This document shows, piece after piece, positions 7,691-58,547 of a stretch of 64,000 nucleotides of DNA (position 1 is its first letter; each line of letters starts with the position of its first letter). Where the stretch lies: contig JAMLIB010000011.1 in the NCBI GenBank assembly GCA_023954415.1, positions 62,001 to 126,000 of the forward strand. The letters run 5' to 3'. The notes beneath the pieces were generated by a model. It made no database searches. It was not told where the DNA came from and worked only from the letters and a program-made list of their open reading frames with translations. Made by a program: the position numbers and the translations under genes. The DNA comes from Trueperaceae bacterium (GTDB lineage Bacteria; Deinococcota; Deinococci; Deinococcales; Trueperaceae).

Positions 7691-8446
7691 TCATCTCGGC
7701 TCCGCCTCCCGCCGCAGGAGGACGGCCCGCAGCTGCCCGTACAGTTCGCGCGACTCCTCCGGGGTACGACCGTAGCCGCCGTAACGAACGACGAGCTTGG
7801 CGGCCTCCTTGCCGAGTCCCTCGTCGTTGAGCCGCTCCACGAGCCGCTCGATGACATCGTGGCCGCTCGGGTTGCTCACGGCCTGCCGCTCCACCTCTCC
7901 GTCTGCGCCCGGTTCCGCTTTCATCGACGCGAGCGGCTCCGTGCCGACGTACGCGGTCGACCGCGCCCTGCTCGCGCCTTGCGCAAGGGAAGCGGGCACG
8001 GGCTCCGGCTCGAACAGCGCCTCGCCGGTCTCCGGGTCGAAGTCGACCCAGTAGTCGGGGGCCTCCTCTACGTACGGCAGCCGCAAGCCGAACTGAGAAG
8101 CACAACGCGCCAGGGCGAGCTCTCCCAAGCGCGAGTACGGGCTGCCTTCAGGTAACGCGCCGCCTGGCGGCGCGGCCGCCGCGACCACGGGCACGGCGAC
8201 GACGTCGGAGCGTGTCACGCCGGCGACCGTGAGGTTGGCGACCAACGCGGACGCCCCCATGGGCTCGAGGGTGAACGACCAGCCCCAGCGGCCGCAGGCA
8301 GCGTCCAGGCGCTCGGCCACCGCCTCGCGCGCCGCGTAAGGCTCCAGCCGCACCCGCGCCCCGCCGGGCTCGACCTCGGCGACATGCCAGCGCAAGGCGT
8401 CGGACGTGAGAGGCGGAGCGAGTCTGGCGCTCAGCTCGGGCTGCAC
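7691..8446 (-). CDS. ddrA: DdrA-like Rad52-family DNA-end-binding protein
   Basis: 251 residues from GTG 8446. The N-terminal ~130 residues fit the Rad52/DdrA fold: an opening PELSARLAPPLTSDALRWH, then RLDAACGRWGWSFTLEPM, LVANLTVAGVTRSD, and the helix ELALARCASQFGLRLPYV. This corresponds to the family pattern of a damaged-DNA single-strand annealing core (DAMKRCAVQFGIG in Deinococcus). DdrA of Deinococcus radiodurans binds and protects 3' ends after irradiation. The C-terminal half (after about 150) is an acidic linker and a short helix-rich tail, poorly conserved. The close TATAGT hexamer indicates a leaderless mRNA. I see no radiation/desiccation response palindrome upstream. Assigned by remembered family resemblance, not a search. 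Confidence 0.65.
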   Translation of the reverse strand: MQPELSARLAPPLTSDALRWHVAEVEPGGARVRLEPYAAREAVAERLDAACGRWGWSFTLEPMGASALVANLTVAGVTRSDVVAVPVVAAAAPPGGALPEGSPYSRLGELALARCASQFGLRLPYVEEAPDYWVDFDPETGEALFEPEPVPASLAQGASRARSTAYVGTEPLASMKAEPGADGEVERQAVSNPSGHDVIERLVERLNDEGLGKEAAKLVVRYGGYGRTPEESRELYGQLRAVLLRREAEPR

Positions 8447-8452
8447 CTCAGC

Positions 8453-8458
8453 ACTATA
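8453..8458 (-). promoter_or_regulatory. -10 element of the ddrA-like gene (leaderless)
   Basis: TATAGT on the minus strand ends 6 nt before the GTG at 8446. Confidence 0.6.
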
Positions 8459-8535
8459 GCAACGCGCACAACGCGTAGGACGCGAAAGACGCCACCCGTA
8501 CGCCACCGGTCGGAGGGAGGCTTACGGGGGTGCGG

Positions 8536-8541
8536 TAATGT
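8536..8541 (+). promoter_or_regulatory. -10 element of the 865-residue membrane protein gene (leaderless)
   Basis: TAATGT ends 7 nt before ATG 8549. It lies back-to-back with the ddrA-like promoter about 80 nt away. Confidence 0.5.
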
Positions 8542-8548
8542 TGGGACC

Positions 8549-11146
8549 ATGTCCAGACCTAGCGCCGTATCGAACCGCGCCGGCAAGTCGCCGTCGCCGT
8601 CTCCCGCGGGCCGACGGCGGGTCGGCGCGTTCCTGGCGACACTCATCGCCTCGGTGCTGACCTTCGGCATCGCCTTAGCGCAGGTGGCGCCGGTGGTCGG
8701 CCTCGGCGCTTACGACCTCGAGGTGGGCCAGACGCTCGAGGTGAGTGGCGACCGCCTCACGCCCGGGGCCGACTACCGCATCGCCGTCGGACCGGTCGGG
8801 GGCGCGGCGACAGTCAGCCTCGTGCAGGCCGACACCAACGGCTCCATCCGCTTCGCCACCGTGCTCGAGGAACCGGGCGATCACGGGGTCAGCATCGACG
8901 GCCAAGACATCCATGCGGCGTTCACGGTGAGCGTGCGCGGGTCCGGCTCGGCGCCCGCCGCCGCGGGCCAGGCGACGGGGGCGGGCACCACGCCGCCTGC
9001 CGCAGGAGACGACGCCACCGGGCAAGGCACCCAGCCCACCACAGAGGACGCCGGACCAGAGACGGCGACACCGGAGACGACCGCCCCCGAACGGGCCGCG
9101 GAGGAGCCCCGGCAGGACCCGATCCAGGCCTACCCGACGGCGCGGCTCGCCGGCGGCGAGGTGCAAGGGGTACAGGGCGAGGAGGTCGTCTGGCGGCTGG
9201 GCTTCCCCGCCGGCTCGGGCGAGACGGCCGGCCTGGTCCAGTCCGGGCTTGACGTCTACGTCGGGCATGGGAACCACGTGCTCAAGGTCGACGCCAGGAC
9301 GGGCAAGGTCACGAAACGCCACCGCCTGCCGGCCCAGGTCACTGCGCTGCAAGGGCGCGGCGGGGCCTTGAGCGCCACGGTCACCTACTCCACCGGCGCG
9401 GAGGGCAGCTTCGCGATCCTCGAGACGTCCCAGGACCCACAGGAGCCGTTCGACGACGATCCGGCCCTCTACGGCTGGCTGCGCAAGGAGGCGGCGGGCG
9501 GCGACCCGGTGGAGCGCCTGGAACACGACGAGACGAACCCGTGGCTCTACCTCGAGGCCGCGCGCGCCGCCGCACCCGGGAGCGCGGATGAGAGCCGCTT
9601 CGTCGCCGGGGCGCTGAGCAACGCCGTCACGTTCTATGAACGCGCACAACTCGCGCGCGAGTTCATGCGCTTCTCGCCCCAGAAGCGCGAGGAGGCCGCC
9701 ACGGCCATGCACGCGGCGCTGGACGACTTCGTCGCGCGCGGCTACCGGGCGGAGCTCCTCTTCGATCAGGACCTGGCGGAAGCCTACGGCTTCCCCTTGG
9801 GCGCCATGACCGCGGCCCTCGGCAGGGGCGACGTCCAGTCCGCCGGCTTCTGGGCGGACTGGGTCTACCTCCTCGCGACGCCCGCCGTCCCGCAGACGCA
9901 GGCGGCCTTGGCGGAGTACGCCGCATACTTGCGCGCCGACGGCCAGCGCGAGGCCTCTAACCTCTGGCGGGAGCGCGCTCGCGAAGGGGCCGGCTTCGAC
10001 CTGGCCGCATCCGTGCGCAAGGTGGCGCTCGACGTCGGCAGGACCGGCTGGTACGGGGTCGTGGCCATCCTCGTCGCGCTCCTTGCCCTATACGTGGCGC
10101 TGGCCGCCAAGTACTGGCGTCCGCAGACCCTCAACCTGCGCAGGCGCTCCGGCAATACCGGGTTGGGCGCGCGGCTCTTCTTCCTGCGCTACGCGACGTT
10201 CACCGAGAAGCTCGTGGCCGTGCTGCTGCTGGCCGCGGCCATGGCGCTCGCCGCGCTGCACGGCTGGGCGCGGGAGGGCGACTCGCTGCCGAGGGCGTGG
10301 GGCTCCGGCTCGCTCGCCTCGGTGCCGGCGCTCGACGCCCTCGCACGGTTGGACGGCACGGGCTCGGAGGCCGAGTTCGTGCGGGGCTTCGCCGAGCAGA
10401 GCTCCGGCGCGGACGACCCGGCCGCGGTCGCGTACCGCGCCGCGGGCGACGACGCCGACGCCGTCAACAACCTGGGGGCGCTGCTCGGCGATCAGGCGCT
10501 CTACCAGCGCGCCCTCGAGCTCAAGCCCGGGCTGGGCGCCGCGAGCTTCAACATGGGTCGCGCGGAGAACCCGTCGCGGCTCATGGCCGCGTTCGCCCCG
10601 GACGCGCCTGCGCTGGTCGTGCCGGACGAGACGCGGCTACGCAGCGCGGTGGCCGGGACGTTCCAGACGGCGTTGGTAGGCATGTTCACCAACCCGTGGG
10701 CGGGCCTCACCGGCCTGGCCGGGGTGACGCTGCCGCAGTGGGCGTGGTTGATCGTCGTGATCGCCTTCCTCCTGCTCGCGCTCTTCAACGTCGTGATGCT
10801 GCTCCTGCCCCGCCCGCGCGAGGCGCGCAACGCGCCGCGGACCCCCCTGTACCACCTCCTCGCCATCCTCCTCCCGGGCACCGGGCAGGCCGACGAGCTG
10901 TGGGGGGTCCTCCTCTCCGTCCCGTGGGCCGTCTTCGGCGTGGACCTGCTACTGCACTTCCTCACCGCCGGCCCCGACCCCGCCATGAGCGTGATGACCG
11001 ACCTGGTGGCCCTGACGGTCATCTACGTCGTCAACCTGGTGGCGTACTTCGTGGAGCTGGCCTCCTACCGCCGCCGCATGCAGGCCCTCAAGCAGAACGA
11101 CCCCGAGACGGCCCGCGCTTACGGCATGCGCAGGCTAGGCGCCTGA
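8549..11146 (+). CDS. Large unrecognised membrane protein with exported N-terminal half
   Basis: 865 residues; I do not recognise the family. From the N terminus: a basic stretch and a signal/anchor segment (about 24-45); a beta-rich domain (about 47-130); a Thr/Pro/Ala/Gly-rich linker (about 131-190); a short segment resembling a beta-propeller blade (DVYVGHGNHVLKVDARTGKV, about 235-254); an alpha-helical region (about 310-490); then membrane segments near 501-520, 554-571, 731-752, 786-805 and 816-836. Between the second and third lies a soluble stretch with TPR-like helices (about 625-675, DADAVNNLGALLGDQALYQRALELKPG). The architecture suggests an envelope scaffold or sensor. The EamA transporter starts 10 nt downstream, so the two are likely in one transcript. 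The start is set by the close TAATGT hexamer. Confidence 0.7.
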   Translation: MSRPSAVSNRAGKSPSPSPAGRRRVGAFLATLIASVLTFGIALAQVAPVVGLGAYDLEVGQTLEVSGDRLTPGADYRIAVGPVGGAATVSLVQADTNGSIRFATVLEEPGDHGVSIDGQDIHAAFTVSVRGSGSAPAAAGQATGAGTTPPAAGDDATGQGTQPTTEDAGPETATPETTAPERAAEEPRQDPIQAYPTARLAGGEVQGVQGEEVVWRLGFPAGSGETAGLVQSGLDVYVGHGNHVLKVDARTGKVTKRHRLPAQVTALQGRGGALSATVTYSTGAEGSFAILETSQDPQEPFDDDPALYGWLRKEAAGGDPVERLEHDETNPWLYLEAARAAAPGSADESRFVAGALSNAVTFYERAQLAREFMRFSPQKREEAATAMHAALDDFVARGYRAELLFDQDLAEAYGFPLGAMTAALGRGDVQSAGFWADWVYLLATPAVPQTQAALAEYAAYLRADGQREASNLWRERAREGAGFDLAASVRKVALDVGRTGWYGVVAILVALLALYVALAAKYWRPQTLNLRRRSGNTGLGARLFFLRYATFTEKLVAVLLLAAAMALAALHGWAREGDSLPRAWGSGSLASVPALDALARLDGTGSEAEFVRGFAEQSSGADDPAAVAYRAAGDDADAVNNLGALLGDQALYQRALELKPGLGAASFNMGRAENPSRLMAAFAPDAPALVVPDETRLRSAVAGTFQTALVGMFTNPWAGLTGLAGVTLPQWAWLIVVIAFLLLALFNVVMLLLPRPREARNAPRTPLYHLLAILLPGTGQADELWGVLLSVPWAVFGVDLLLHFLTAGPDPAMSVMTDLVALTVIYVVNLVAYFVELASYRRRMQALKQNDPETARAYGMRRLGA

Positions 11147-21054: not shown

Positions 21055-21063
21055 GGGGACTTG

Positions 21064-22056
21064 ATGATCCGGCCGAGCACTGCGCGAGTCGACAACCAGA
21101 GGCGCTTCACACCGCGTGTGATGATGGTGCTCGTCCCGCTCCTCGCGACGCTCGTGTTGAGCGCGTGCGGGAGCGCGCAGGAGGGAACCGTCTCGGCCAC
21201 CCGCCCGGCAGCAGCTCTGGAGTCGACCGCCCTGTTCGGCGCGTTCACCTTCGGCGGCGTGTGGCGCGGCATGGACCCCATCTACGAGCTCGAGCTCGAC
21301 CTCGGTCGCCGCCTGGACGTCGTGCACTGGTTCACGAACTGGGACAACCCCTACTTCCCCGAGTTGGTCGCCATGGCTTCCCAAGGCGGACGCAGGCCGA
21401 TGATCAGCTGGCAGAGCTACGACCGCAGCGTCGAAGACATCGCGGCCGGCAAGTACGACGCCTACATCACCGAGTGGGCGCGCGGCGCAGCCACCGCGCC
21501 CGGTCTCCTCTACGTGCGCCCCTTCCCCGAGATGAACGGCGACTGGACCCAGTGGAGCGGCGACCCCGAGGGGCTCAAGCGCGCCTGGCGCCGCATCGTC
21601 GGCATCTTCGACTCCGTGGGGGCGACCAACGTACGCTGGGTGTTCAGCCCCAACGTCACGGACTCGCCGCGCGTGCCGGAGAACGCCATGGAGCTCTACT
21701 ACCCGGGCGACGACTATGTCGACGTCCTCGCCCTGGACGGCTACAACTGGGGCGACGTCCTGCCTTCCGTCGGCTGGCGCTCGTTCGAGGCCATCTTCCG
21801 CGCCGGCTACGACCGCGTGACGAGCTTGGGAGCACAGCCCGTCTGGATCGCAGAGCTCGCGAGCTCGAACGTCGGCGGCGACAAGAGCGACTGGGTCCGC
21901 GAGATGTTCGCCACCACGGGGTTCGAACGCATCGAGGCGCTCGTCTGGTTCAACGAGAACAAAGAGGCCGACTGGCGCATCGATTCCGACGTCGCGACCC
22001 TGCACGCGTTCAGGCAGATGCTCAGCGCCGGCACCGCGGTCGCTGCGGTCCGCTGA
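21064..22056 (+). CDS. GH26-like glycosidase lipoprotein, paralog A
   Basis: 330 residues from ATG 21064 (TTG 21061 is adjacent). Lipoprotein signal: basic n-region, VMMVLVPLLATLVLSAC with the lipobox LSAC (Cys35). The catalytic domain fits glycoside hydrolase family 26 (beta-mannanase/beta-glucanase type): acid/base Glu156 in VRPFPEMNGDW and nucleophile Glu264 in PVWIAELASS, plus the substrate-cleft DGYNWGD and an ALVWFNENKEADW C-terminal block. Family members cut mannan or mixed beta-glucans; the substrate here is unknown. It is the first gene after two c-di-GMP-II riboswitches. The next gene is a clear paralog. Confidence 0.85.
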   Translation: MIRPSTARVDNQRRFTPRVMMVLVPLLATLVLSACGSAQEGTVSATRPAAALESTALFGAFTFGGVWRGMDPIYELELDLGRRLDVVHWFTNWDNPYFPELVAMASQGGRRPMISWQSYDRSVEDIAAGKYDAYITEWARGAATAPGLLYVRPFPEMNGDWTQWSGDPEGLKRAWRRIVGIFDSVGATNVRWVFSPNVTDSPRVPENAMELYYPGDDYVDVLALDGYNWGDVLPSVGWRSFEAIFRAGYDRVTSLGAQPVWIAELASSNVGGDKSDWVREMFATTGFERIEALVWFNENKEADWRIDSDVATLHAFRQMLSAGTAVAAVR

Positions 22057-22140: not shown

Positions 22141-23388
22141 GTGGTATCCATATGGCATATATCACAGCGCCGGCCGCAGGCCGGGCGCGCGGGAACTTCC
22201 TTGACCGACAGCCGCTCAACTCGACCAGTTCGCGCCTGTTCAGATGGACGGCGATCCGCGCGTCGGAGGCGGGCCGGGCTCGTAGGTCTGGCGGCGCTGA
22301 TCGTCGCTATCGCGTCGGCACTGAGCGCGTGTTCCGAGCCGGAGACGGCCGCGCTGCCGGGGAGGACCGCCCCTCCCATGCTGGGAGCCTTCGTCCCGGC
22401 CGGTGTATGGAACGATCTCGCTCCCCTTCGGGAGCTGGAGGACCGGGTCGGCGGCGCTTTCGGGCTCGCCCACTGGTACACGTCCTGGGATTTCGCGTAC
22501 GACCCCGTTCCCGTCGATGACGTCCTGGCCGCCGGCCGGATACCACTGGTCACCTGGCAGACCCACAACGAGGCCTTTGACGACATCGTGGCCGGAGCGT
22601 ACGACGCTTACATCCGGGAGTGGGCGCACGGCGTGCGCGCGGCCGCCGGCACCGTGTACGTGCGCATCTTCCCTGAGATGAACGGCGAGTGGACCCCCTG
22701 GAACGGCGACCCCGAAGGGCTCAAGCGCGCCTGGCGGCATATCGTCGAGCTCTTCGCCGCCGAGGACGCGACCAACGTCCGTTGGGTCTTCAGCCCCAAC
22801 GTCACCGACGAACCGCGCACGCCGGAGAACGCCATGGAGCGCTACTACCCCGGCGACGACTACGTCGACGTGCTTGGCCTCGACGGCTACAACTGGGGCG
22901 AGACCAAGCCCCTGATCGGCTGGCGCAGCTACGAGGACGTGTTCAAGGACGGCTACGCCCGGATCACGCGCCTCGGCGGCCAGCCCCTCTGGCTGGCCGA
23001 GGTGGCCTCGGCCGAAGGCGAGAAGGCAGGCGACAAGGCCGCTTGGGTGGACGACATGTTGAACTCCACCGCATTCCCGCGCGTCGAGGCCATCGTGTGG
23101 TTCAACGAGGACAAGGAGGCGGACTGGCGCATCGAGAGCTCGCTCCTCTCCCTTCAGGCCTTCCGTTCCTACTTCCGGAGCCGGCAGGGCGCCGAATCGC
23201 CACAGGCTGCGCGCGCTCCCGCTGCGCCCGCGCGAGCGCAGCCCATAGCGGTCCGCACCGGCACGGACGTCGCGGTCGCTGCGCCCGCCGGTGGCACCCG
23301 CCCTTCGAGTAGCGCCGGAGCGGGTGGGCGTCCCGCCTCCTCCACCACCGTGTTCGCGGGCGGCGAGCACCACGCGCTCGGCCGATAG
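22141..23388 (+). CDS. GH26-like glycosidase lipoprotein, paralog B
   Basis: Up to 415 residues from GTG 22141; the true start may be later (TTG 22201) because about 45 residues precede the signal segment. Lipobox LSAC at Cys64 after GLVGLAALIVAIASA. GH26-type catalytic residues Glu179 (RIFPEMNGEW) and Glu287 (PLWLAEVAS). Shares long stretches with paralog A, including ENAME-YYPGDDYVDVL and DGYNWG, so a tandem duplication is evident. Unlike A it has a C-terminal Ala/Pro/Gly/Ser-rich tail of about 70 residues, possibly a wall-spanning linker. The 84-nt gap after A has no clear terminator, so both probably share the riboswitch transcript. Confidence 0.82.
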   Translation: MVSIWHISQRRPQAGRAGTSLTDSRSTRPVRACSDGRRSARRRRAGLVGLAALIVAIASALSACSEPETAALPGRTAPPMLGAFVPAGVWNDLAPLRELEDRVGGAFGLAHWYTSWDFAYDPVPVDDVLAAGRIPLVTWQTHNEAFDDIVAGAYDAYIREWAHGVRAAAGTVYVRIFPEMNGEWTPWNGDPEGLKRAWRHIVELFAAEDATNVRWVFSPNVTDEPRTPENAMERYYPGDDYVDVLGLDGYNWGETKPLIGWRSYEDVFKDGYARITRLGGQPLWLAEVASAEGEKAGDKAAWVDDMLNSTAFPRVEAIVWFNEDKEADWRIESSLLSLQAFRSYFRSRQGAESPQAARAPAAPARAQPIAVRTGTDVAVAAPAGGTRPSSSAGAGGRPASSTTVFAGGEHHALGR

Positions 23389-23406: not shown

Positions 23407-24756
23407 ATGCCTAGCCTCCGGTCGCCCTTCCGCCTCCTCGCTTTCCCCGCCAACGTTGGCGGCAAGCCGACTCCCACCTTCGACCCGCAGCCTAGTCGTG
23501 GCGCGCGCCTAAACGTGGCGTGCGGCGTGCGGCGCGTCGCTCACGGCCTGTTGCTCGCCCTCGCCGCATGCTGGCTGGCGTACGCCTCGGCGCCGGCGGC
23601 GGCAGAGCCGCCGCACCCTCGCAGCGCTACCGCCTACGGCCTCGAGACGCTCACCAAGCTCCTCCCGTTGCCGGTGGACGCCGTGCCGCTCGACGACACG
23701 GGCGACCTGCTGATCGTCGCTCTCGACGGCGCCGTGTGGCGCTACACGGACGGCGCCGTGGCCGGGACGCCGTTCCTGTCGCTCGGCGGGCGCGTCACGG
23801 GCCTGCTCGGCGAACAGGGCCTCTTCACGGCGGCGCTGGAGCCGGCCGAACGCGCGGCGGCGCGCGGCAACGCGCGGCACATCGTCGTGGCGTTCACCGA
23901 AGCCGGCACCAACGATCTGGTGGTGGCCGCCTACCCGCTGGCGGAGGACGCGAGCAGTGCCGACGCCGCGCAGGAGACGGTGCTGCTGCGCGTACCGGTG
24001 CGTGAGCCCTTCCACCACGGTGGGCAGGTCGCCTTCGGCGTCGACGACATGCTGTACGTGTCAGTCGGCGAGGGCCAACGCGAGGTGGAGTACTTCCACG
24101 AGACGCCCATACCGGCCCAAGACCTCACGTCGCTGCTCGGCAAGGTCTTGCGCATCGACCCGTTTCCAGCGGACGGCGACACGCCCTATACCGTGCCGCA
24201 GGACAACCCGTTCGTCGGCGGACAAGGGGCGACGCAGGGCGCGCTCGGCGAGGTCTACGCCTTCGGGTTCCGCAACCCGTGGAAGTTCAGCTTCGCGGCG
24301 AGCGACGGCGCGCTGCTGTTAGCGGACGTCGGCGAGGACACCTGGGAGGAGATCGACGTCGTGCGCCCGGGGGGCAACTACGGCTGGCCGTACATGGAGG
24401 GCCCCCACTGCTTCGAGTACCCGGACACCGGCGGGTTGGTGGCTCCCGACTGCGAGCGTCTCCCGCTCGTCCCGCCGGCCGCGTACTACGGTCACCTCCG
24501 GATAGACCCGGTCGGCGGCCTGTCCGTGACCGGCGGCTTCGAGGCCCACGATCCGGCGCTGCCCGAGCTCGTCGGCAAGTACTTGTTCGGGGACTTCGTC
24601 TCCGGTCGCCTCTGGTCGCTCGACCGGGCGACCGGTGCCGTCGAGCTCCTCCTCGAGACCGGGCTGCCGATCTCGGCCATCGTGCCGGGCGCCGCAGGCG
24701 AGGTGCTCGTGCTGGGGATAGAAGGGACGCTGGCGCGGCTCGTCGAGGCCCGCTAG
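23407..24756 (+). CDS. PQQ-type soluble sugar dehydrogenase (GdhB-like), exported
   Basis: Up to 449 residues from ATG 23407, which follows a TACCAT hexamer by 9 nt. A later GTG (23515) directly before the signal peptide (VACGVRRVAHGLLLALAACWLAYASAPAAA) is a plausible alternative. The six-bladed propeller of the glucose/sorbosone dehydrogenase family is recognised by FHHGGQVAFGVDDMLYVSVGEG (with the catalytic His block), a GEVYAFGFRNPWKFSF motif, DVGEDTWEEID, and GGNYGWPYMEGPHC. Members oxidise aldose sugars or sugar residues with PQQ. It follows the GH26 pair by 18 nt and converges on the synthase gene. Confidence 0.8.
   Translation: MPSLRSPFRLLAFPANVGGKPTPTFDPQPSRGARLNVACGVRRVAHGLLLALAACWLAYASAPAAAEPPHPRSATAYGLETLTKLLPLPVDAVPLDDTGDLLIVALDGAVWRYTDGAVAGTPFLSLGGRVTGLLGEQGLFTAALEPAERAAARGNARHIVVAFTEAGTNDLVVAAYPLAEDASSADAAQETVLLRVPVREPFHHGGQVAFGVDDMLYVSVGEGQREVEYFHETPIPAQDLTSLLGKVLRIDPFPADGDTPYTVPQDNPFVGGQGATQGALGEVYAFGFRNPWKFSFAASDGALLLADVGEDTWEEIDVVRPGGNYGWPYMEGPHCFEYPDTGGLVAPDCERLPLVPPAAYYGHLRIDPVGGLSVTGGFEAHDPALPELVGKYLFGDFVSGRLWSLDRATGAVELLLETGLPISAIVPGAAGEVLVLGIEGTLARLVEAR
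23447..23462. repeat. 16-bp perfect palindrome at the 5' end of the sugar dehydrogenase gene
   Basis: CCGCCAACGTTGGCGG lies 40 nt after ATG 23407 and 53 nt before the alternative start GTG 23515. If the later start is the real one, the palindrome is in the promoter/leader region and may be an operator. Confidence 0.6.
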
Positions 24757-24855: not shown

Positions 24856-27639
24856 TCAGCCCTGGTTGGGGTTGCCGACGGAGGGCACGCCGTCCGCGCT
24901 GCCGTACAAGCGGCGGCGGATGTCGTCGTACAGGGCCTTGTCGTCGATGCCGAAGCTCTGCACGAGTTCGGCGGTCACGAAGTAAGCCTGGGCCACCGTC
25001 AACCTTCCGTCGGCCACGAGGTTCGTCACGCCGAGGAGGGCGCGCTCCTTGTCCGTGACCGAGTCGGGGTCCGCCCGGTAGGCGGCCACCGTGGCCTGCA
25101 GCGCGTTGGCCAGGGGTCGCAACTCGTCGATCGCTTTCACGAGGTTGCCGTGGACGGGGCTGACCTTGCCACGCACGACCCCCTCGAGGGGGTTGATGTA
25201 GCGGGCGTACGCGAAGTGGTCGTCCTCGCCGCCGGGTTGCGCCCGGGCCCACGCCAGCTTGGCGGCACCCGCGCAGACCGAGAAGTCGGGATCGAACACG
25301 GAGAAGTCGCCCGCGAAGAACCGCTGGTTGGCGTATGGCGAGAGCTGGTCCGTCGAGATCGCGCGCAGCAGCGTCAGAGCGTCGCTCGTGACCTGCGAGA
25401 GGCCGAGGTCGCCGGTCGGCCCGACGGCCAGCGGGTCGAGGTAGGACTCGTTGATGAGGATGCGCAGCAGGAGGTCGGGCGGCACGTCGTACGCGGTCGA
25501 GGCCTCCTCGATGTTGGCCACGAGCGGCGCCAAGCGCGCCAGGACGAGCAGACCCCACGCGGAGAGCGGTTGGTAGCCCTCCGCCACCTCGAGCCGGTGG
25601 CGCTTCGTGGCCGGCCGCAGCACGTCGGCGACGGAGCAGTAGGCCGACACGCGGCCGTGCCCCTCGTTGGACGCCATGACGTGGAGACCGAGCCGGGCGA
25701 GCGGCGAGTCGACGAGGTCGGTGGGAACGCCGGGGTCGTCGGCCCGCGCGCCGCGGTCGTCGCCCTGCGCCTCGGCGACGCGCGCGTCGTCGCCGAACTC
25801 GGTCGGCGCGTCCACCGGACCCGCGGCGTCCGCCCCTGGCGCCAGGCCCTCCGAGGCTCCACCGGCGCCCGGATCGGCAGCCTGCGCGGGGCGCGAGAAC
25901 CCGGCGTCGACGAAGGCGTCGAGCAGCCCACGGTCGGTCAAGGACAGCGGCAACGTCATGTGGTCGTCCTGCGACACCCTGACTGAGTCGTTGATGAGGC
26001 GCCAGGCATCGCGGTAGCCGGGTCGGGTGGCCGAGGCGAGGACCGCAGCGCCGGCGAAGACCGTGGCGACGGACAGCACCATGCCGGTGGTGGCGCCAAG
26101 GTAGCGGAGCTGCGAGCGCTTCGACGTGCGCGACCGCGGCCTGTCCCACGTGATCGTGGCCCGCGGATCGAACTCGTTGCGCCGCATGAAGCGCGGTACG
26201 GCCCTGGCGGCCCCCGTCAGGAACGTGACGGCATTGAACGGGCGCAGGAGCGCGAGGGGCACGACGGACGTCGCCGCCTCGCGGCCGACCTTGGACCAGA
26301 GCCTGAAGCGGCGCAGCCCTTGCGCGCGCCAGATGCGGGCGAAGCCCCACGTGGCGAGGACGAGCGTGGCCGCCAGGTCGAAACCCGCCCATAGCCCGAG
26401 GGCCTTCAGCGGCGTGCCGTGGCCGGGCAGGGCGTAGTTCAGTCCGGCAGCAACGGGCAGCATGAGCAGCAGCAGCGCCAGCCCGAACAGGTTCTCGAAG
26501 TGTGCGGCCAGGACCGTGAAGCGCACGTTGGCCCGCAGGTCGCGCCACTGGGCGCGCCGGAACAGCCGCTTGAGACCGTTCTCGATGCCGCCGCCGTTCC
26601 ACCGCTCGATCTGCCGCAAGTACCCTGGCAGGCTGGGCGGGTCGTCCGTGTACATGAGGGCGGACGTGATGAACCGGGCGTTGCTGCCGTGGCGTATGAC
26701 GAGCGGGGCGTCGCCAACGAGCCTGCCGAGCTCGACCTCCTCGCCGTCGACGACGACGCGGAACCCCTTGGCATCGAGCTCGGGGGCGCCGACGTGCTCG
26801 TCGGTCACCGCGCGGTTCTGCACGCTGAGCGTGAAGTCGTGGTCCTCGGTCAACGTGTCGGCCGGCATCGGGAAGCACTCGCGCCTCGCCACGAACCCGC
26901 ACCCGACCACCGTGTAGAGCCGCGAGCGGCCGAACACGGCCCCCTCGCCCAACCGCGCCGTCTGACCCGTGCGCAGCACCGCCGCGATGGCGTACTCGGC
27001 CGAGCGGGCACGCGAGATGAACCTGGCCACCGGCTTGCCGCGCCCGGGGTCGGCGGACATCACCGCGCCTGATTGGATCGCGTAGTCCTCGAGGACGTAG
27101 CGGAGCTTGCGACCATGACCCACGCGCCGCAGACGGTAGAAGTCGTCGCGCAGGCGCGCCAGGAAGTGTTCCTCGAGGACCGTGTCGCCGTCGACGATGA
27201 GCACCCGCTCGGCGCTCAGCAGGCCGCCGCTCAGCACGACGTTGATGCTGTCCGACTTGGAGATCGGCTGGGCGTGCTCGACGACGATGACGCTCGGTCC
27301 GCCGCCGCCGGCCTTCAGCCACCGCTCGAAGGTCGCGGTGGCGTCGGCGACCGGGCCTCTGGTCACGCACCGGTACCCGGCCTCCCCCAACGTCAGCTTC
27401 ACGACCTCCGCCGTGGCGTCCGTGCCGCCGTTGATGCTCACGGCCAGCGCGTCGAACGGCACGCTCTGCGCGAGTAGCGACGTCAGGGCGGCGGCGGCGC
27501 CCGCCTCCTCGTTGAACATCGGCGACACCACGCCTACGCGGTCCGGCGACCTCACCGGGAGCGAGGCGTCCTTGGCCAGGCTGAACATGGCGTTGGCGAT
27601 GACGGTCGGCGTCGCTAGCAGCCCGGGTATGAACGGCAA
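24856..27639 (-). CDS. Membrane glycosyltransferase 2 fused to a lytic-transglycosylase-like domain
   Basis: 927 residues from TTG 27639 (GGAAGG 11 nt upstream). N-terminal GT2 domain with the processive-synthase motif set: VVSPMFNEE (about 37-45), VDGD (149-152), TEDHD (264-268) and QIERW (343-347). Then come membrane segments near 381-402, 411-434, 457-476 and 515-537. A Gly/Ala/Asp-rich linker (about 580-640) leads to a domain at about 705-800 with the SLT motif INESYLDPLAVG and DLGLSQV (catalytic Glu731 by analogy). By topology this domain lies outside the membrane. The synthase half resembles PgaC/hyaluronan-type polymer synthases that export a beta-linked glycan; the SLT half suggests cutting or passing through peptidoglycan. 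I know of no common protein with this architecture. Convergent with the sugar dehydrogenase gene (99-nt gap). Confidence 0.85.
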   Translation of the reverse strand: MPFIPGLLATPTVIANAMFSLAKDASLPVRSPDRVGVVSPMFNEEAGAAAALTSLLAQSVPFDALAVSINGGTDATAEVVKLTLGEAGYRCVTRGPVADATATFERWLKAGGGGPSVIVVEHAQPISKSDSINVVLSGGLLSAERVLIVDGDTVLEEHFLARLRDDFYRLRRVGHGRKLRYVLEDYAIQSGAVMSADPGRGKPVARFISRARSAEYAIAAVLRTGQTARLGEGAVFGRSRLYTVVGCGFVARRECFPMPADTLTEDHDFTLSVQNRAVTDEHVGAPELDAKGFRVVVDGEEVELGRLVGDAPLVIRHGSNARFITSALMYTDDPPSLPGYLRQIERWNGGGIENGLKRLFRRAQWRDLRANVRFTVLAAHFENLFGLALLLLMLPVAAGLNYALPGHGTPLKALGLWAGFDLAATLVLATWGFARIWRAQGLRRFRLWSKVGREAATSVVPLALLRPFNAVTFLTGAARAVPRFMRRNEFDPRATITWDRPRSRTSKRSQLRYLGATTGMVLSVATVFAGAAVLASATRPGYRDAWRLINDSVRVSQDDHMTLPLSLTDRGLLDAFVDAGFSRPAQAADPGAGGASEGLAPGADAAGPVDAPTEFGDDARVAEAQGDDRGARADDPGVPTDLVDSPLARLGLHVMASNEGHGRVSAYCSVADVLRPATKRHRLEVAEGYQPLSAWGLLVLARLAPLVANIEEASTAYDVPPDLLLRILINESYLDPLAVGPTGDLGLSQVTSDALTLLRAISTDQLSPYANQRFFAGDFSVFDPDFSVCAGAAKLAWARAQPGGEDDHFAYARYINPLEGVVRGKVSPVHGNLVKAIDELRPLANALQATVAAYRADPDSVTDKERALLGVTNLVADGRLTVAQAYFVTAELVQSFGIDDKALYDDIRRRLYGSADGVPSVGNPNQG

Positions 27640-27802
27640 GGTGCGTTCGTCCTTCCTAACGGTCTCGAGAACGTCTTGACGAGCACCTTACCGGGCGCTC
27701 TCTGACAACATCCTCACGTTACACGGCCCACCCGGAGATTCATGAGATGCCCGTGACCGCGTGCGCGCTCGGCGGCCCGCGCGACCGGCCTCTATCCTCA
27801 CC

Positions 27803-27839: not shown

Positions 27840-27845
27840 TAACAT
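27840..27845 (+). promoter_or_regulatory. -10 element of the 3D-domain gene
   Basis: TAACAT. The ATG at 27844 lies inside the hexamer, so translation should start at GTG 27871, which has GGAGG 10 nt upstream. Confidence 0.5.
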
Positions 27846-27870
27846 GCCGCGACTGGGAGGTGGTGCCCTA

Positions 27871-28500
27871 GTGGCGCTGCACATCAGCGGCAAGCTCGTG
27901 GCCATAGGGCTCGTGGTTGCCGCCCTCATCACCGCCTTCAGCTCGCCACGCACCGAACCGCCGGTTCCGGTCGCTTTGGAAGTAGCTCCGTTCGCGGACG
28001 TCGTCGAGCCTCCGGCCGACCACCCCGGCGACTCGGACCCGAGCAACGCCTTGCTCGGCCCCACCGCCAACCCCCGCTTCGTCCTGCGCGCCACGGGCTA
28101 CAACTCCCACGAGAGCCAGACCGACGCCTCGCCGTTCGTCACCTCGACGGGCGCGCGCACGGCCTTCGGGGTGGTGGCGGTCAGCCGCGACCTCCTGGGA
28201 GGCGAGTTGCCGTACGGCTCGCTCGTGCGTATCCGCGACCTCGGCAACTACCACACGGGGCGCGGCGTCGGCGCCTTCCAGCAGTTCCTCGGCGATCACC
28301 TCTTCATCGTGGAGGACACGATGCACGCGCGCAAGACCCAGCAGATCGACGTCTGGTTCGAGAGCTACTCCCAGGCCGTCAACTGGGGGGTCCGCAAGGT
28401 GGAGGTGGAGCTCATCCGCTACGGCCGCAGCGGTCACGAGTTCATACCCAGCTCTGCTCCGACCTTCGAAGCCACCCCCGTGCTCATCGCCTCGCGCTAA
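27871..28500 (+). CDS. 3D-domain (RlpA/MltA-like fold) membrane-anchored protein
   Basis: 209 residues from GTG 27871; GGAGG at 27856-27860. An N-terminal hydrophobic anchor (KLVAIGLVVAALITAFSS) and a Pro/Glu/Asp-rich linker precede a 3D domain at about 70-165. That domain is a double-psi barrel with a conserved aspartate triad, here Asp85, Asp149 (VEDTMHA) and Asp160 (QQIDVWF). Flanking motifs are RATGYNS, GVVAVSRDLLG and LPYGSLVRIRD. In MltA and Firmicutes proteins this fold cleaves or binds peptidoglycan. It is divergent from the GT2-SLT gene across about 230 nt, so both may work on the envelope. The LolC-like permease begins 8 nt after its stop. Confidence 0.8.
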   Translation: MALHISGKLVAIGLVVAALITAFSSPRTEPPVPVALEVAPFADVVEPPADHPGDSDPSNALLGPTANPRFVLRATGYNSHESQTDASPFVTSTGARTAFGVVAVSRDLLGGELPYGSLVRIRDLGNYHTGRGVGAFQQFLGDHLFIVEDTMHARKTQQIDVWFESYSQAVNWGVRKVEVELIRYGRSGHEFIPSSAPTFEATPVLIASR

Positions 28501-55027: not shown

Positions 55028-55168
55028 ACGAGCCGCGTAGCAGCGCTCGCGCGCCGGTCCCCCGTTCCTAACAGAGCGCTACCCGATGCTATATGGTGGT
55101 CCGCGTTGGACGCGCCCCACGCGTTCGGCGCGCCTCACGCGTGAAACGAGCGGCGCGATTGGAGTGGA

Positions 55169-56110
55169 ATGGAGCCGACACGTCTTCCGAGCTTGGCAGG
55201 CAAGGACTTCTTGTCTCTCGCCGACCTGACCAAGGAGGAGTTCGCCGGCCTGATCGCCAGCGCCATCCAGCTCAAGGCCGACTGGAAGCGCGGCGTGCGA
55301 CCGGCGCCCATGCAGCACAAGACGTTGGCCATGTTCTTCGAGAAGCAGTCGCTCAGGACGCGAACCACCTTCGACGTCGCCATGGCCCAGCTCGGCGGCC
55401 ACTCCGTCCTGCTGAGCCAGGACTACATCGGCTTGGGCGTGCGCGAGACCGTCAGGGACGTAGCCAACAACCTCAGCCGCTGGGTGGACGGCATCATGGC
55501 CCGCACGTACGAGCACGACAAGCTCCTCCAGCTCGCCGAGCACGCGACGGTGCCCGTCATCAACGGCCTCTCCGACTACCTGCACCCGTGCCAGCTCGTG
55601 GCCGACTACATCTCGCTGACCGAGACCTTCGGCGACCTCGCCGGCCTGAAGCTCACGTACGTCGGCGACGGCAACAACGTCGCCAACTCCCACGTGAACG
55701 CGGCCGCGCTCGCCGGGGTGCACCTGACCGTCGCGTGCCCCCCGGGCTACGAGCCGGACGCCGGGGTGCTGGCCGCCGCCCGTGAGCGCGGCGGCTCCAT
55801 CACCATCGCGCACGACCCCCGCGCGGCCGTGAGGGGCGCGGACGCGCTCTACACGGACGTCTGGATCTCGATGGGCATGGAGGAGGACACGGCGCGGCGC
55901 AAGCGCGACTTCGCCGGCTACACCATCACCCCCGAGTGGTTCGCCGACCTGGCCCCCCGCGGGGTCTTCATGCACGACCTGCCCGCCCACTACGGCGAGG
56001 AGTGCACGGAGGAGTGCGTCTACCATGAGCGCAGCATCGTATTCGACCAGGCCGAGAACCGCCTGCACGCGCACAAGGCCGTCATCTTCCAGTACCTGGC
56101 GGAGCCGTGA
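55169..56110 (+). CDS. argF: Ornithine carbamoyltransferase with an HDLP active-site motif
   Basis: 313 residues, ATG preceded by GGAG. Makes citrulline from ornithine and carbamoyl phosphate. Carbamoyl-phosphate loop SLRTRTTFD (61-69), HPCQ (139-142), VGDGNNVANS, and DVWISMGME. The ornithine-loop motif reads MHDLPAHYGEECTEE: His269-Asp270-Leu-Pro instead of HCLP, so the catalytic cysteine of E. coli Cys273 is Asp. The HY that follows (for HR) also occurs in the Thermus-type enzyme as I remember it. The rest of the protein is intact and shows no decay, so an active enzyme is expected. argC begins 46 nt after it. Confidence 0.9.
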   Translation: MEPTRLPSLAGKDFLSLADLTKEEFAGLIASAIQLKADWKRGVRPAPMQHKTLAMFFEKQSLRTRTTFDVAMAQLGGHSVLLSQDYIGLGVRETVRDVANNLSRWVDGIMARTYEHDKLLQLAEHATVPVINGLSDYLHPCQLVADYISLTETFGDLAGLKLTYVGDGNNVANSHVNAAALAGVHLTVACPPGYEPDAGVLAAARERGGSITIAHDPRAAVRGADALYTDVWISMGMEEDTARRKRDFAGYTITPEWFADLAPRGVFMHDLPAHYGEECTEECVYHERSIVFDQAENRLHAHKAVIFQYLAEP

Positions 56111-56155
56111 GCGCAGGCGAGCGCGAGCCGACCGTGAGCACCGGCGGGGACGCGC

Positions 56156-57256
56156 ATGACTGACGGACCGATCAGGGCCGGGGTGCTCGGCGCCAGCGGT
56201 TACGGCGGCGCCGGCCTCGTCGAGCGCCTGGTGCGCCACCCGGGGGTGACACTGGCGGCTATCGGCTCGCGGGCGTACCTCGGCAAGCCACTGGCGGCGA
56301 GCTGGCCGCACCTCGCCGGCCTCCGGAGCGACCTCCGGTTCCAGGACTCCGATGACGTGATCGCGGCGTCCGACGTGGTCTTCTGCGCCACGCCGCACGG
56401 GGCAACGGCCCCGCTCGTCGCCCAGGCCCTCGCCGCCGGCAAGCGGGTCGTCGACCTGTCGGCCGACTTCCGCCTGAGCGCCGCCGCCTACGAGGAGTGG
56501 TACGGCCACCCCCACCCCCACCCGGAGCTCCTCCCCGAGGCGCGCTACGGTCTGGTCGAGCTGCACCGCCACGAGCTGCCCGGAGCGCGGATCGTGGCGA
56601 GCCCCGGCTGCAACGCCACGGCCGCCTCCCTGGCCGTCGCCCCCCTGGCGGCGGCCGGCCTGCTCGGCGAGGTAGCCATCGCCAACGTGCTGACCGGCGT
56701 GTCCGGCGCCGGACGCTCGCCTTCGGGCCCCATGCACTTCAGCGAGATGGCGGAGAACGCCCGCCCATACAAGCCGGCGGGAACCCACCGCCATACGGCC
56801 GAGATCGAGGCCGTAGGCGGGCGCGTCCGGGCGGCGCTGGCGCGCGGCGACGCCAAGCGCCTCCTCACCCACGCCCCGTTCCAACCGGTACTCGTGGCGT
56901 TCACGCCGCACATCGTGCCGATGAACAGGGGCATCATCGCCACCGTGGCCACCCGGCCGCTCGACTGGGGCGACAGGGCGCCGACGACGGAGGCGGTCCT
57001 TGGGCTCGTTACCGACTACTACGCCGGCGACCCGCTCGTGGACGTCGGCCCGGAGCTGCCGCAGACGAAGGCGGTGGCCGGCTCCGATCGCGCCAGCTTG
57101 AGCGCGCACGTCGACGGGCGGACCGGGCAGGTCCTCGTCTTCTGCGCCATCGACAACCTCGGCAAGGGGGCCGCCGGCCAGGCCGTGCAGGGCTTCAACG
57201 TCGCGTTCGGCTTCGCGGAGACGACCGCGCTGAGCCTGACCGGCGCGTGGCCGTGA
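56156..57256 (+). CDS. argC: N-acetyl-gamma-glutamyl-phosphate reductase
   Basis: 366 residues. NADPH-dependent reduction, third arginine step. Rossmann motif VLGASGYGGAGLVERLVRHPG (about 9-29), VVFCATPHGATAPL, DLSADFRL, and the catalytic cysteine in ASPGCNATAASLA (about Cys155). The active-site His region is FTPHIVPMNRGIIATV, and the C terminus has FCAIDNLGKGAAGQAVQGFNVAFGF. Follows argF and precedes argJ in the same operon; argB is not in the window. ATG has no strong Shine-Dalgarno. Confidence 0.96.
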   Translation: MTDGPIRAGVLGASGYGGAGLVERLVRHPGVTLAAIGSRAYLGKPLAASWPHLAGLRSDLRFQDSDDVIAASDVVFCATPHGATAPLVAQALAAGKRVVDLSADFRLSAAAYEEWYGHPHPHPELLPEARYGLVELHRHELPGARIVASPGCNATAASLAVAPLAAAGLLGEVAIANVLTGVSGAGRSPSGPMHFSEMAENARPYKPAGTHRHTAEIEAVGGRVRAALARGDAKRLLTHAPFQPVLVAFTPHIVPMNRGIIATVATRPLDWGDRAPTTEAVLGLVTDYYAGDPLVDVGPELPQTKAVAGSDRASLSAHVDGRTGQVLVFCAIDNLGKGAAGQAVQGFNVAFGFAETTALSLTGAWP

Positions 57257-57398
57257 GCACCGGCGATCACGCGGCGCCCCGAACCTCGGGGCCCGAAGCG
57301 CCGCGGGCACCGTTCCACGGCACGGCAGAGATGCCGGCGCGAACCGTAGTTCACGCGGCGTCGCCGGCGGCAGCCCGCGACGCGCTAGGAGGCAAGCA

Positions 57399-58547
57399 GT
57401 GAACGTTCCGCAAGGGTTCCAGCTGGCCGGCGTCACGGCCGGCGTCAAGCGTTCCGGTCGGCCGGACCTCGGGGTCATCTACTCGCCGGCTCCGCTCGCC
57501 TGGGCGTACAGCGCCACGCAGAACGCCGCCGCCGCCCCCTGCGTCGCGCGCGACCGCTCCCTCGCCGCCGCGGGTGGGCCCGTACGCGCCGTCATCGTCA
57601 ACAGCGGGAACGCCAACTGCGCCAACGGCGCGCAGGGCGTGAGCGACGACGTGGCGTTCGCGGCGGCCGCCGCGAACGCCCTCGGGCTAGCAGGGCCGGA
57701 GGAGGTCGTCAGCGCCAGTACCGGCGTGATCGGCCACAAGATGCCGCTCCAGGCGCTCGTCGCCGCCATGCCGCGCCTCGCCGCCGAGCGTTCGGCGGAC
57801 GCCGACGGCTTCTCCAAGGCCATCCTGACGACCGACCTCGCCCCGAAGGTCGCGACGGCCAGCATGGCCAGCGGCGCCCGCGTGCTCGGCGTGGCCAAGG
57901 GCTCCGGCATGATCCACCCGAACATGGCCACCATGTTCGCGTTCGTCATGACCGACGCCCAGGTCGACCAGGAGACGCTGCGCCCAATGTGGCAGCGCGT
58001 CGTGGAGCGCACCTTCAACCAGCTCACGGTCGATGGCGACACGTCGACGAACGACATGGCCGTCGCCCTGTCGTCGAACCTGGTGCCGACGGACGCCGAC
58101 GAGGTCGAGCTGGTGCTCGGGAACGTCGCGACGGAGCTGGCGAAGCAGATCGCCCGCGACGGCGAAGGCGCCACCAAGCTCATCACGGTGCGCGTGACGG
58201 GCGCGCGGACCGACGTCGAGGCCCGCCGCGCGGCGCGCACGGTGGCCGGCAGCAGCCTGGTCAAGACTGCCGTCCACGGGGCCGACCCGAACTGGGGGCG
58301 CATCCTGGCCGCCGCCGGCCGCTCGGACGTGGCCATGGACATGGCTCGCGCGGTGGTGATCGCGCAGGGCACGGAGCTCTATCGGGGCCAGCCCCTCGAG
58401 TACGACGCGCGCGCCGTCTCGAACGCGCTGCGCACCGCCGACGTCCTCCTCGAGGTCGACCTGGGTGTCGGGACGGCGGAGGGCACTGCCTGGGGCTGTG
58501 ACCTCACCGAGGGCTACGTCCGCATCAACGCCGACTACACGACCTGA
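57399..58547 (+). CDS. argJ: Glutamate N-acetyltransferase (ornithine acetyltransferase)
   Basis: 382 residues, GTG preceded by an excellent TAGGAGG. Transfers the acetyl group from N-acetylornithine to glutamate, recycling it; some ArgJ also use acetyl-CoA. The precursor self-cleaves before Thr178 in the conserved MIHPNMATMFAF motif (Ala177-Thr178), giving two chains. Other motifs: VIVNSGNANCANGAQG, STGVIGHKMPL, TVDGDTSTNDM, and the C-terminal VDLGVGTAEGTAWGCDLTEGYVRINADYTT. Length is standard. It ends the second arginine cluster, followed by a terminator hairpin. Confidence 0.97.
   Translation: MNVPQGFQLAGVTAGVKRSGRPDLGVIYSPAPLAWAYSATQNAAAAPCVARDRSLAAAGGPVRAVIVNSGNANCANGAQGVSDDVAFAAAAANALGLAGPEEVVSASTGVIGHKMPLQALVAAMPRLAAERSADADGFSKAILTTDLAPKVATASMASGARVLGVAKGSGMIHPNMATMFAFVMTDAQVDQETLRPMWQRVVERTFNQLTVDGDTSTNDMAVALSSNLVPTDADEVELVLGNVATELAKQIARDGEGATKLITVRVTGARTDVEARRAARTVAGSSLVKTAVHGADPNWGRILAAAGRSDVAMDMARAVVIAQGTELYRGQPLEYDARAVSNALRTADVLLEVDLGVGTAEGTAWGCDLTEGYVRINADYTT

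Follow-up and report, generated by a model that had tools for sequence, protein, structure and literature searches.

The window analysed here comprises 64,000 nucleotides of contig JAMLIB010000011.1 from the 3.2 Mb draft genome of a Trueperaceae bacterium, and carries on its minus strand a gene for a protein of 927 residues in which a GT2-type glycosyltransferase is followed by a lytic-transglycosylase-like (SLT) domain (Table 1). The Pfam family Glyco_trans_2_3 matches residues 146–400 with 35.9 bits (cut-off 27) and SLT (PF01464) matches residues 709–811 with 32.9 bits (cut-off 21.3), and the proposal of the initial annotation that both activities reside in one protein thus agrees with two matches above cut-off in a single open reading frame. 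On the 3' side of the gene there are two tandem GH26 genes and a gene for a PQQ-type dehydrogenase. On the other side a divergent gene (27844–28500, plus strand), whose product matches a 3D domain below cut-off, lies some 200 bases away from the start codon of the fusion; this gene and an FtsX-type permease gene are each present in only 8 of 18 clustered stretches, the window included, and were not taken as parts of the system. The window also contains an open reading frame of 920 codons (8384–11146, plus strand) and one of 799 codons (55079–57478, minus strand), neither of which matches a Pfam family at E 0.001, and the latter may be a shadow of plus-strand reading frames.

Table 1. Features of the GT2-SLT fusion gene and of its 3' neighbours, in window coordinates
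Feature	Position	Strand	Basis
GH26 lipoprotein a	21061..22056	+	Pfam; lipobox LSAC
GH26 lipoprotein b	22141..23388	+	Pfam; PDB 2bv9, E 1.8e-41; lipobox LSAC
Glucose/sorbosone-type (PQQ) dehydrogenase GSDH, with N-terminal export signal read from the sequence	23407..24756	+	Pfam, E 7.5e-30
GT2-SLT fusion gene, 927 aa, TTG start	24856..27639	-	ORF, Pfam, single-frame orthologs
Probable ribosome-binding site AGGAAGGA, some 10 bases ahead of the TTG start	27650..27657	-	read from the sequence
Uncharged helix at the N terminus (residues 2-22), out-in span by analogy to NodC	27574..27636	-	hydropathy
Cytoplasmic GT2 catalytic domain, residues 33-376	26512..27543	-	Pfam, hhalign to PgaC/NodC
DGD motif, residues 150-152 (DGDT 150-153)	27184..27192	-	invariant
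TED motif, residues 264-266	26842..26850	-	invariant
QIERW (QxxRW) motif, residues 343-347	26599..26613	-	QxERW invariant
Membrane span a, residues 379-403, in-out	26431..26505	-	hydropathy
Membrane span b, residues 413-434, out-in	26338..26403	-	hydropathy
Segment c, residues 457-478, probably interfacial	26206..26271	-	hydropathy, flanking charges; cf. fourth segment of NodC
Membrane span d, residues 516-537, in-out, predicted exporter of the C-terminal domain	26029..26094	-	hydropathy, charge bias
Variable tether, residues 538-664	25648..26028	-	46-182 aa across 22 members; low identity
Predicted extracytoplasmic C-terminal domain, residues 661-915, SLT core 709-811	24895..25659	-	Pfam, hhalign to MltC
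Glu731 (in NES), predicted catalytic acid/base	25447..25449	-	alignment to Glu of MltC; invariant
GLSQ motif, residues 746-749	25393..25404	-	MltC alignment, conservation
Cys668, invariant, probable disulfide to Cys789	25636..25638	-	kept in 23/23
Cys789, invariant	25273..25275	-	kept in 23/23

In a search of 111 Deinococcota genomes the fusion protein was found in 23 of the 39 from Trueperaceae and not in the 72 others; the 16 Trueperaceae genomes counted as being without it are those with no match at 1e-10, and several of them are incomplete. Both halves lie in one open frame in 22 of the 23 orthologous genes, which come from separate assemblies, and an assembly artefact or an artificial joining of frames was therefore rejected. 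The remaining ortholog (G088) is truncated by a contig end and retains just the SLT part. A Pfam scan of the orthologs (E up to 0.01) detected Glyco_trans_2_3 in all 22 members scanned and SLT in 21 of them. The identity among the members falls to 40%, indicating that the fusion is old within Trueperaceae. Outside the Deinococcota, a profile scan of viral contigs gave 39 pattern matches, none of them a relative of the fusion, tblastn against plasmids gave no match, and two further phyla (396 and 386 genomes, 782 in all) gave only short matches to the N-terminal GT part, in a scan that scored at most two candidates per genome and that a rare or diverged fusion could escape. The open-licence literature, including the available portions of PMC12419801 and PMC10374906, yielded no description of a GT2 plus SLT architecture. 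The arrangement had been called uncommon from the sequence, and in the collections searched it is confined to Trueperaceae; known enzyme classes are here present in a new covalent pairing, with a conserved gene context. The genome from which the window is taken has only one other SLT match, in a frame of 610 residues (G000:C2:318744-319064), and the fusion accordingly holds one of the two in that genome.

The motifs of both halves, which the initial annotation had picked out as a D-D-TED-QxxRW set and an SLT-type active site, are present and invariant in the orthologs. Glu731 has the residue number given in that annotation. DGDT, TEDHD and QxERW are kept in all 22 members that have the GT region, and NES, G(L/M)(S/A)Q and AYAxYxNP in all 23. 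Identity to the protein of the window is 45–95% in the GT domain and 51–99% in the SLT core, compared with 11–82% in the tether, so that both enzyme domains look constrained while the tether between them does not.

With hhalign the GT domain matches PgaC at 96.3% over residues 30–383, with all GT motifs aligned, and NodC at 91.8%, while the match to a CelA-like protein of S. meliloti is weak (35.6%) and BcsA is unmatched across the domain (1.5%). A cellulose synthase proper was rejected on this last comparison, and a poly-N-acetylglucosamine (PNAG) synthase proper since the score for PgaC_IcaA (TIGR03937) is 19.3 bits, far below the cut-off of 422.3. The GT half is thus supported as a GT2 enzyme with the processive-type motifs DGD, TED and QxERW; processivity, product and lytic activity are taken below as predicted properties of the fusion.

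Kyte-Doolittle peaks of the fusion include residues 9–14, 381–399, 416–428, 464–469 and 522–531, and weaker peaks at 57–60, 140–141 and 699–702, inside the enzyme domains, were taken as buried strands or helices. The N-terminal helix is uncharged in every ortholog. Segment c sits between two positive loops (435–456, net charge +4.6, and 479–515, +7.6) that are predicted to be cytoplasmic, whereas beyond residue 537 the chain is acidic, with a net charge of -11.6 for the C-terminal domain. This domain contains exactly two cysteines in all 23 members, both invariant. Because of the charge bias and the invariant cysteine pair the SLT domain is placed outside, and the export of the C-terminal part, anticipated in the initial annotation, is thereby retained as a prediction. 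In the simplest model the N-terminal helix would run out-in, the GT domain would lie inside, span a would run in-out and span b out-in, segment c would be interfacial, and span d would run in-out and leave the SLT domain outside. AlphaFold models of residues 1–560 and 640–927 had mean pLDDT values of 32.2 and 36.8, each from three near-identical rows, and were too low to use. In PMC4132801, NodC is mapped by experiment as out-in, in-out and out-in, with a fourth segment at the cytoplasmic interface and a cytoplasmic C terminus, which an earlier study had put in the periplasm. Compared with this mapped topology, the fusion resembles a core of the NodC/PgaC kind that has gained span d, a tether and the SLT domain. 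There are three sure spans besides the N-terminal helix, which are few and may not form a channel for a polymer.

In a single-sequence alignment Glu731 fell on a residue of MltC for which entry 4c5f has Glu and entry 4cfo has Gln, and GLSQ fell on GLMQ of MltC, but the comparison was weak (E 0.25 and 0.67); with the ortholog alignment hhalign gave a modest match to MltC (67.6%, E 5e-5) and no significant match to Slt70. At the position of AYNAG, the usual motif of the SLT family, the fusion has AYAxYxNP (AYARYINP, residues 810–817, in the protein of the window), itself invariant. An SLT-type active site in the C-terminal part is supported, and lytic activity is predicted.

Of the 23 genomes that carry the fusion, 19 have GH26, compared with none of the 16 Trueperaceae genomes that lack it (Fisher 1.5e-7). 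By genus, GH26 is present in 8 of 10 with the fusion and in 0 of 7 without (p 0.0023), two mixed genera being placed among those that have the fusion, with the grouping by genus as the only correction for ancestry, and the co-occurrence partly reflects shared ancestry. In 16 of the 23 genomes GH26 is located 3' of the fusion, 0.3–1.9 kb away by domain match, and the link persists where other neighbours vary. Five of the seven genomes without an adjoining GH26 have less than 1 kb of contig on the 3' side; in G096 and G097, which belong to one genus, the contig of the fusion has no GH26 and four matches each are found elsewhere. These two have a GSDH gene near the fusion instead. The GH26 gene and the fusion gene are convergent in 15 of the 16 and have the same direction in G076, so that no operon is shared in the 15. 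Compared with solved structures, GH26 protein b, the one of the two in the window that was compared, matches the GH26 domain of C. thermocellum endoglucanase H at 1.8e-41 and the best mannanase at 3e-8, and for this protein a mannanase was rejected. The former domain is a lichenase and points to a beta-glucan, perhaps of mixed linkage, as the polymer. The GH26 and PQQ neighbours, of which the initial annotation makes no mention, strengthen the reading of the GT as a polymer synthase.

Taken together, the best explanation of the locus, to which we give a probability of roughly 0.5, is a polymer synthase that carries its own peptidoglycan cutter and has GH26 and PQQ enzymes as partners. A PgaC/NodC-like membrane synthase would assemble, in the cytoplasm, a glucan-like polymer with beta linkages and pass it outward, and the same chain would recross the membrane and carry a flexibly tethered lytic transglycosylase of the SLT type, which would cut peptidoglycan strands next to the synthase. 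Such local cuts could let the polymer cross the wall or be deposited in it, the membrane-anchored GH26 glucanases might trim or edit it, and it may be oxidised by the PQQ sugar dehydrogenase. Since the wall of Deinococcota is thick and is covered by an outer membrane, help with polymer passage is plausible. We infer the identity of the polymer, its export and the purpose of the cutting from the gene context. An outer-membrane exporter of the BcsC type (PF05420) or OPX type was not found in the genome of the window, and the polymer may stay in the wall. The absent exporters, the few spans, the short oligomers made by NodC, the modest match to MltC, the non-significant one to Slt70 and the altered AYNAG motif were counted against this explanation, as were the convergent orientation of GH26, its unlinked position in G096 and G097, the share of ancestry in its co-occurrence with the fusion, and the lack of a match to BcsA.

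Among the other explanations, the one that survives best, though it is rather unlikely, is that the GT is no polymer synthase but transfers a single sugar, or a few, to a lipid carrier or wall precursor and that the lytic domain serves wall remodelling, for instance the turnover or marking of strands. QxxRW is also known from some non-processive GT2 enzymes, the membrane spans are few, neither kind of exporter was found in the genome, and NodC, whose small core is of this kind, yields only short products according to PMC4132801. However, the full DGD, TED and QxERW set with PgaC as the nearest named family, and the strict link with relatives of GH26 endoglucanases, which need a polymer, argue against it. 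An SLT-type domain that acts on the nascent polymer and controls chain length or release, leaving peptidoglycan alone, is less probable still. Lysozyme-like folds also cut chitin-like chains, the domain is covalently tied to the synthase, and enzymes that act on the product of the locus are present at many synthase loci (PgaB and BcsZ, by their annotations), but the SLT family matched here cuts at MurNAc, and GH26 enzymes for the polymer are already present at the locus. A C-terminal domain that chiefly anchors to peptidoglycan or senses it, and keeps the synthase at the wall while cutting little or not at all, would fit the long variable tether and the altered AYNAG motif but is improbable with Asn730, Glu731, Ser732 and Gln749 unchanged in 23 of 23 members.

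How large glycans pass the peptidoglycan is an open question, and the synthase with its own cutter is a candidate for combined synthesis and wall passage that is so far found only in Trueperaceae in the collections searched. The fusion suggests that the cell opens the path of the polymer where the polymer is made, and with synthase and cutter covalently linked the spatial coupling could be tested in one protein by two point mutations, of the Asp of TED and of Glu731. The linked GH26 suggests a glucan layer, and none was found described for Trueperaceae in the literature searched. We tentatively suggest, with somewhat less confidence than in the synthase with its own cutter as such, that one polypeptide makes the glycan, passes it through the membrane and cuts a hole in the peptidoglycan, and together with lipoprotein glucanases of the mixed-linkage type deposits a new layer of beta-glucan within the wall or on its surface.

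Compared with known systems, the fusion shares the GT2 core and the three motif blocks with PgaC, the poly-N-acetylglucosamine synthase of E. coli, but is about 40 residues shorter before the GT domain, leaving room for one span less, and PgaC is without an SLT part. MltC and the family-1 lytic transglycosylases share with it the ES containing the catalytic Glu and a GLxQ-type motif; MltC, however, is a separate protein, and relative to the family-1 enzymes the fusion has AYAxYxNP in place of AYNAG and two invariant cysteines. E. coli Bcs has a synthase beside the endoglucanase BcsZ, much like the synthase and GH26 here, but the fusion is unlike BcsA over the GT domain, and no BcsC-type exporter was detected in its genome. 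The layout of the NodC core described in PMC4132801, with an N-terminal span, a cytoplasmic GT, two spans and an interfacial segment, fits the fusion, but NodC ends in the cytoplasm whereas the fusion has the additional span d that is predicted to export the SLT domain. In Streptomyces, according to PMC9040799, the CslA glycan is deposited at the surface only with the help of CslZ, a lipoprotein glucanase, and LpmP, an LPMO, and these enzymes degrade peptidoglycan locally, by which the authors propose that the glycan passes. That set likewise combines a synthase, a lipoprotein glucanase, a copper enzyme with a presumed role in modifying the glycan and an activity that opens peptidoglycan, and by this description the GH26 and PQQ enzymes would fill the corresponding places by analogy only. 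The wall cutters LpmP and CslZ are separate from the synthase in Streptomyces, while here the predicted cutter would be tied to it, and the best reading of the fusion is that it may be a one-chain counterpart of the CslA/CslZ/GlxA/LpmP set.
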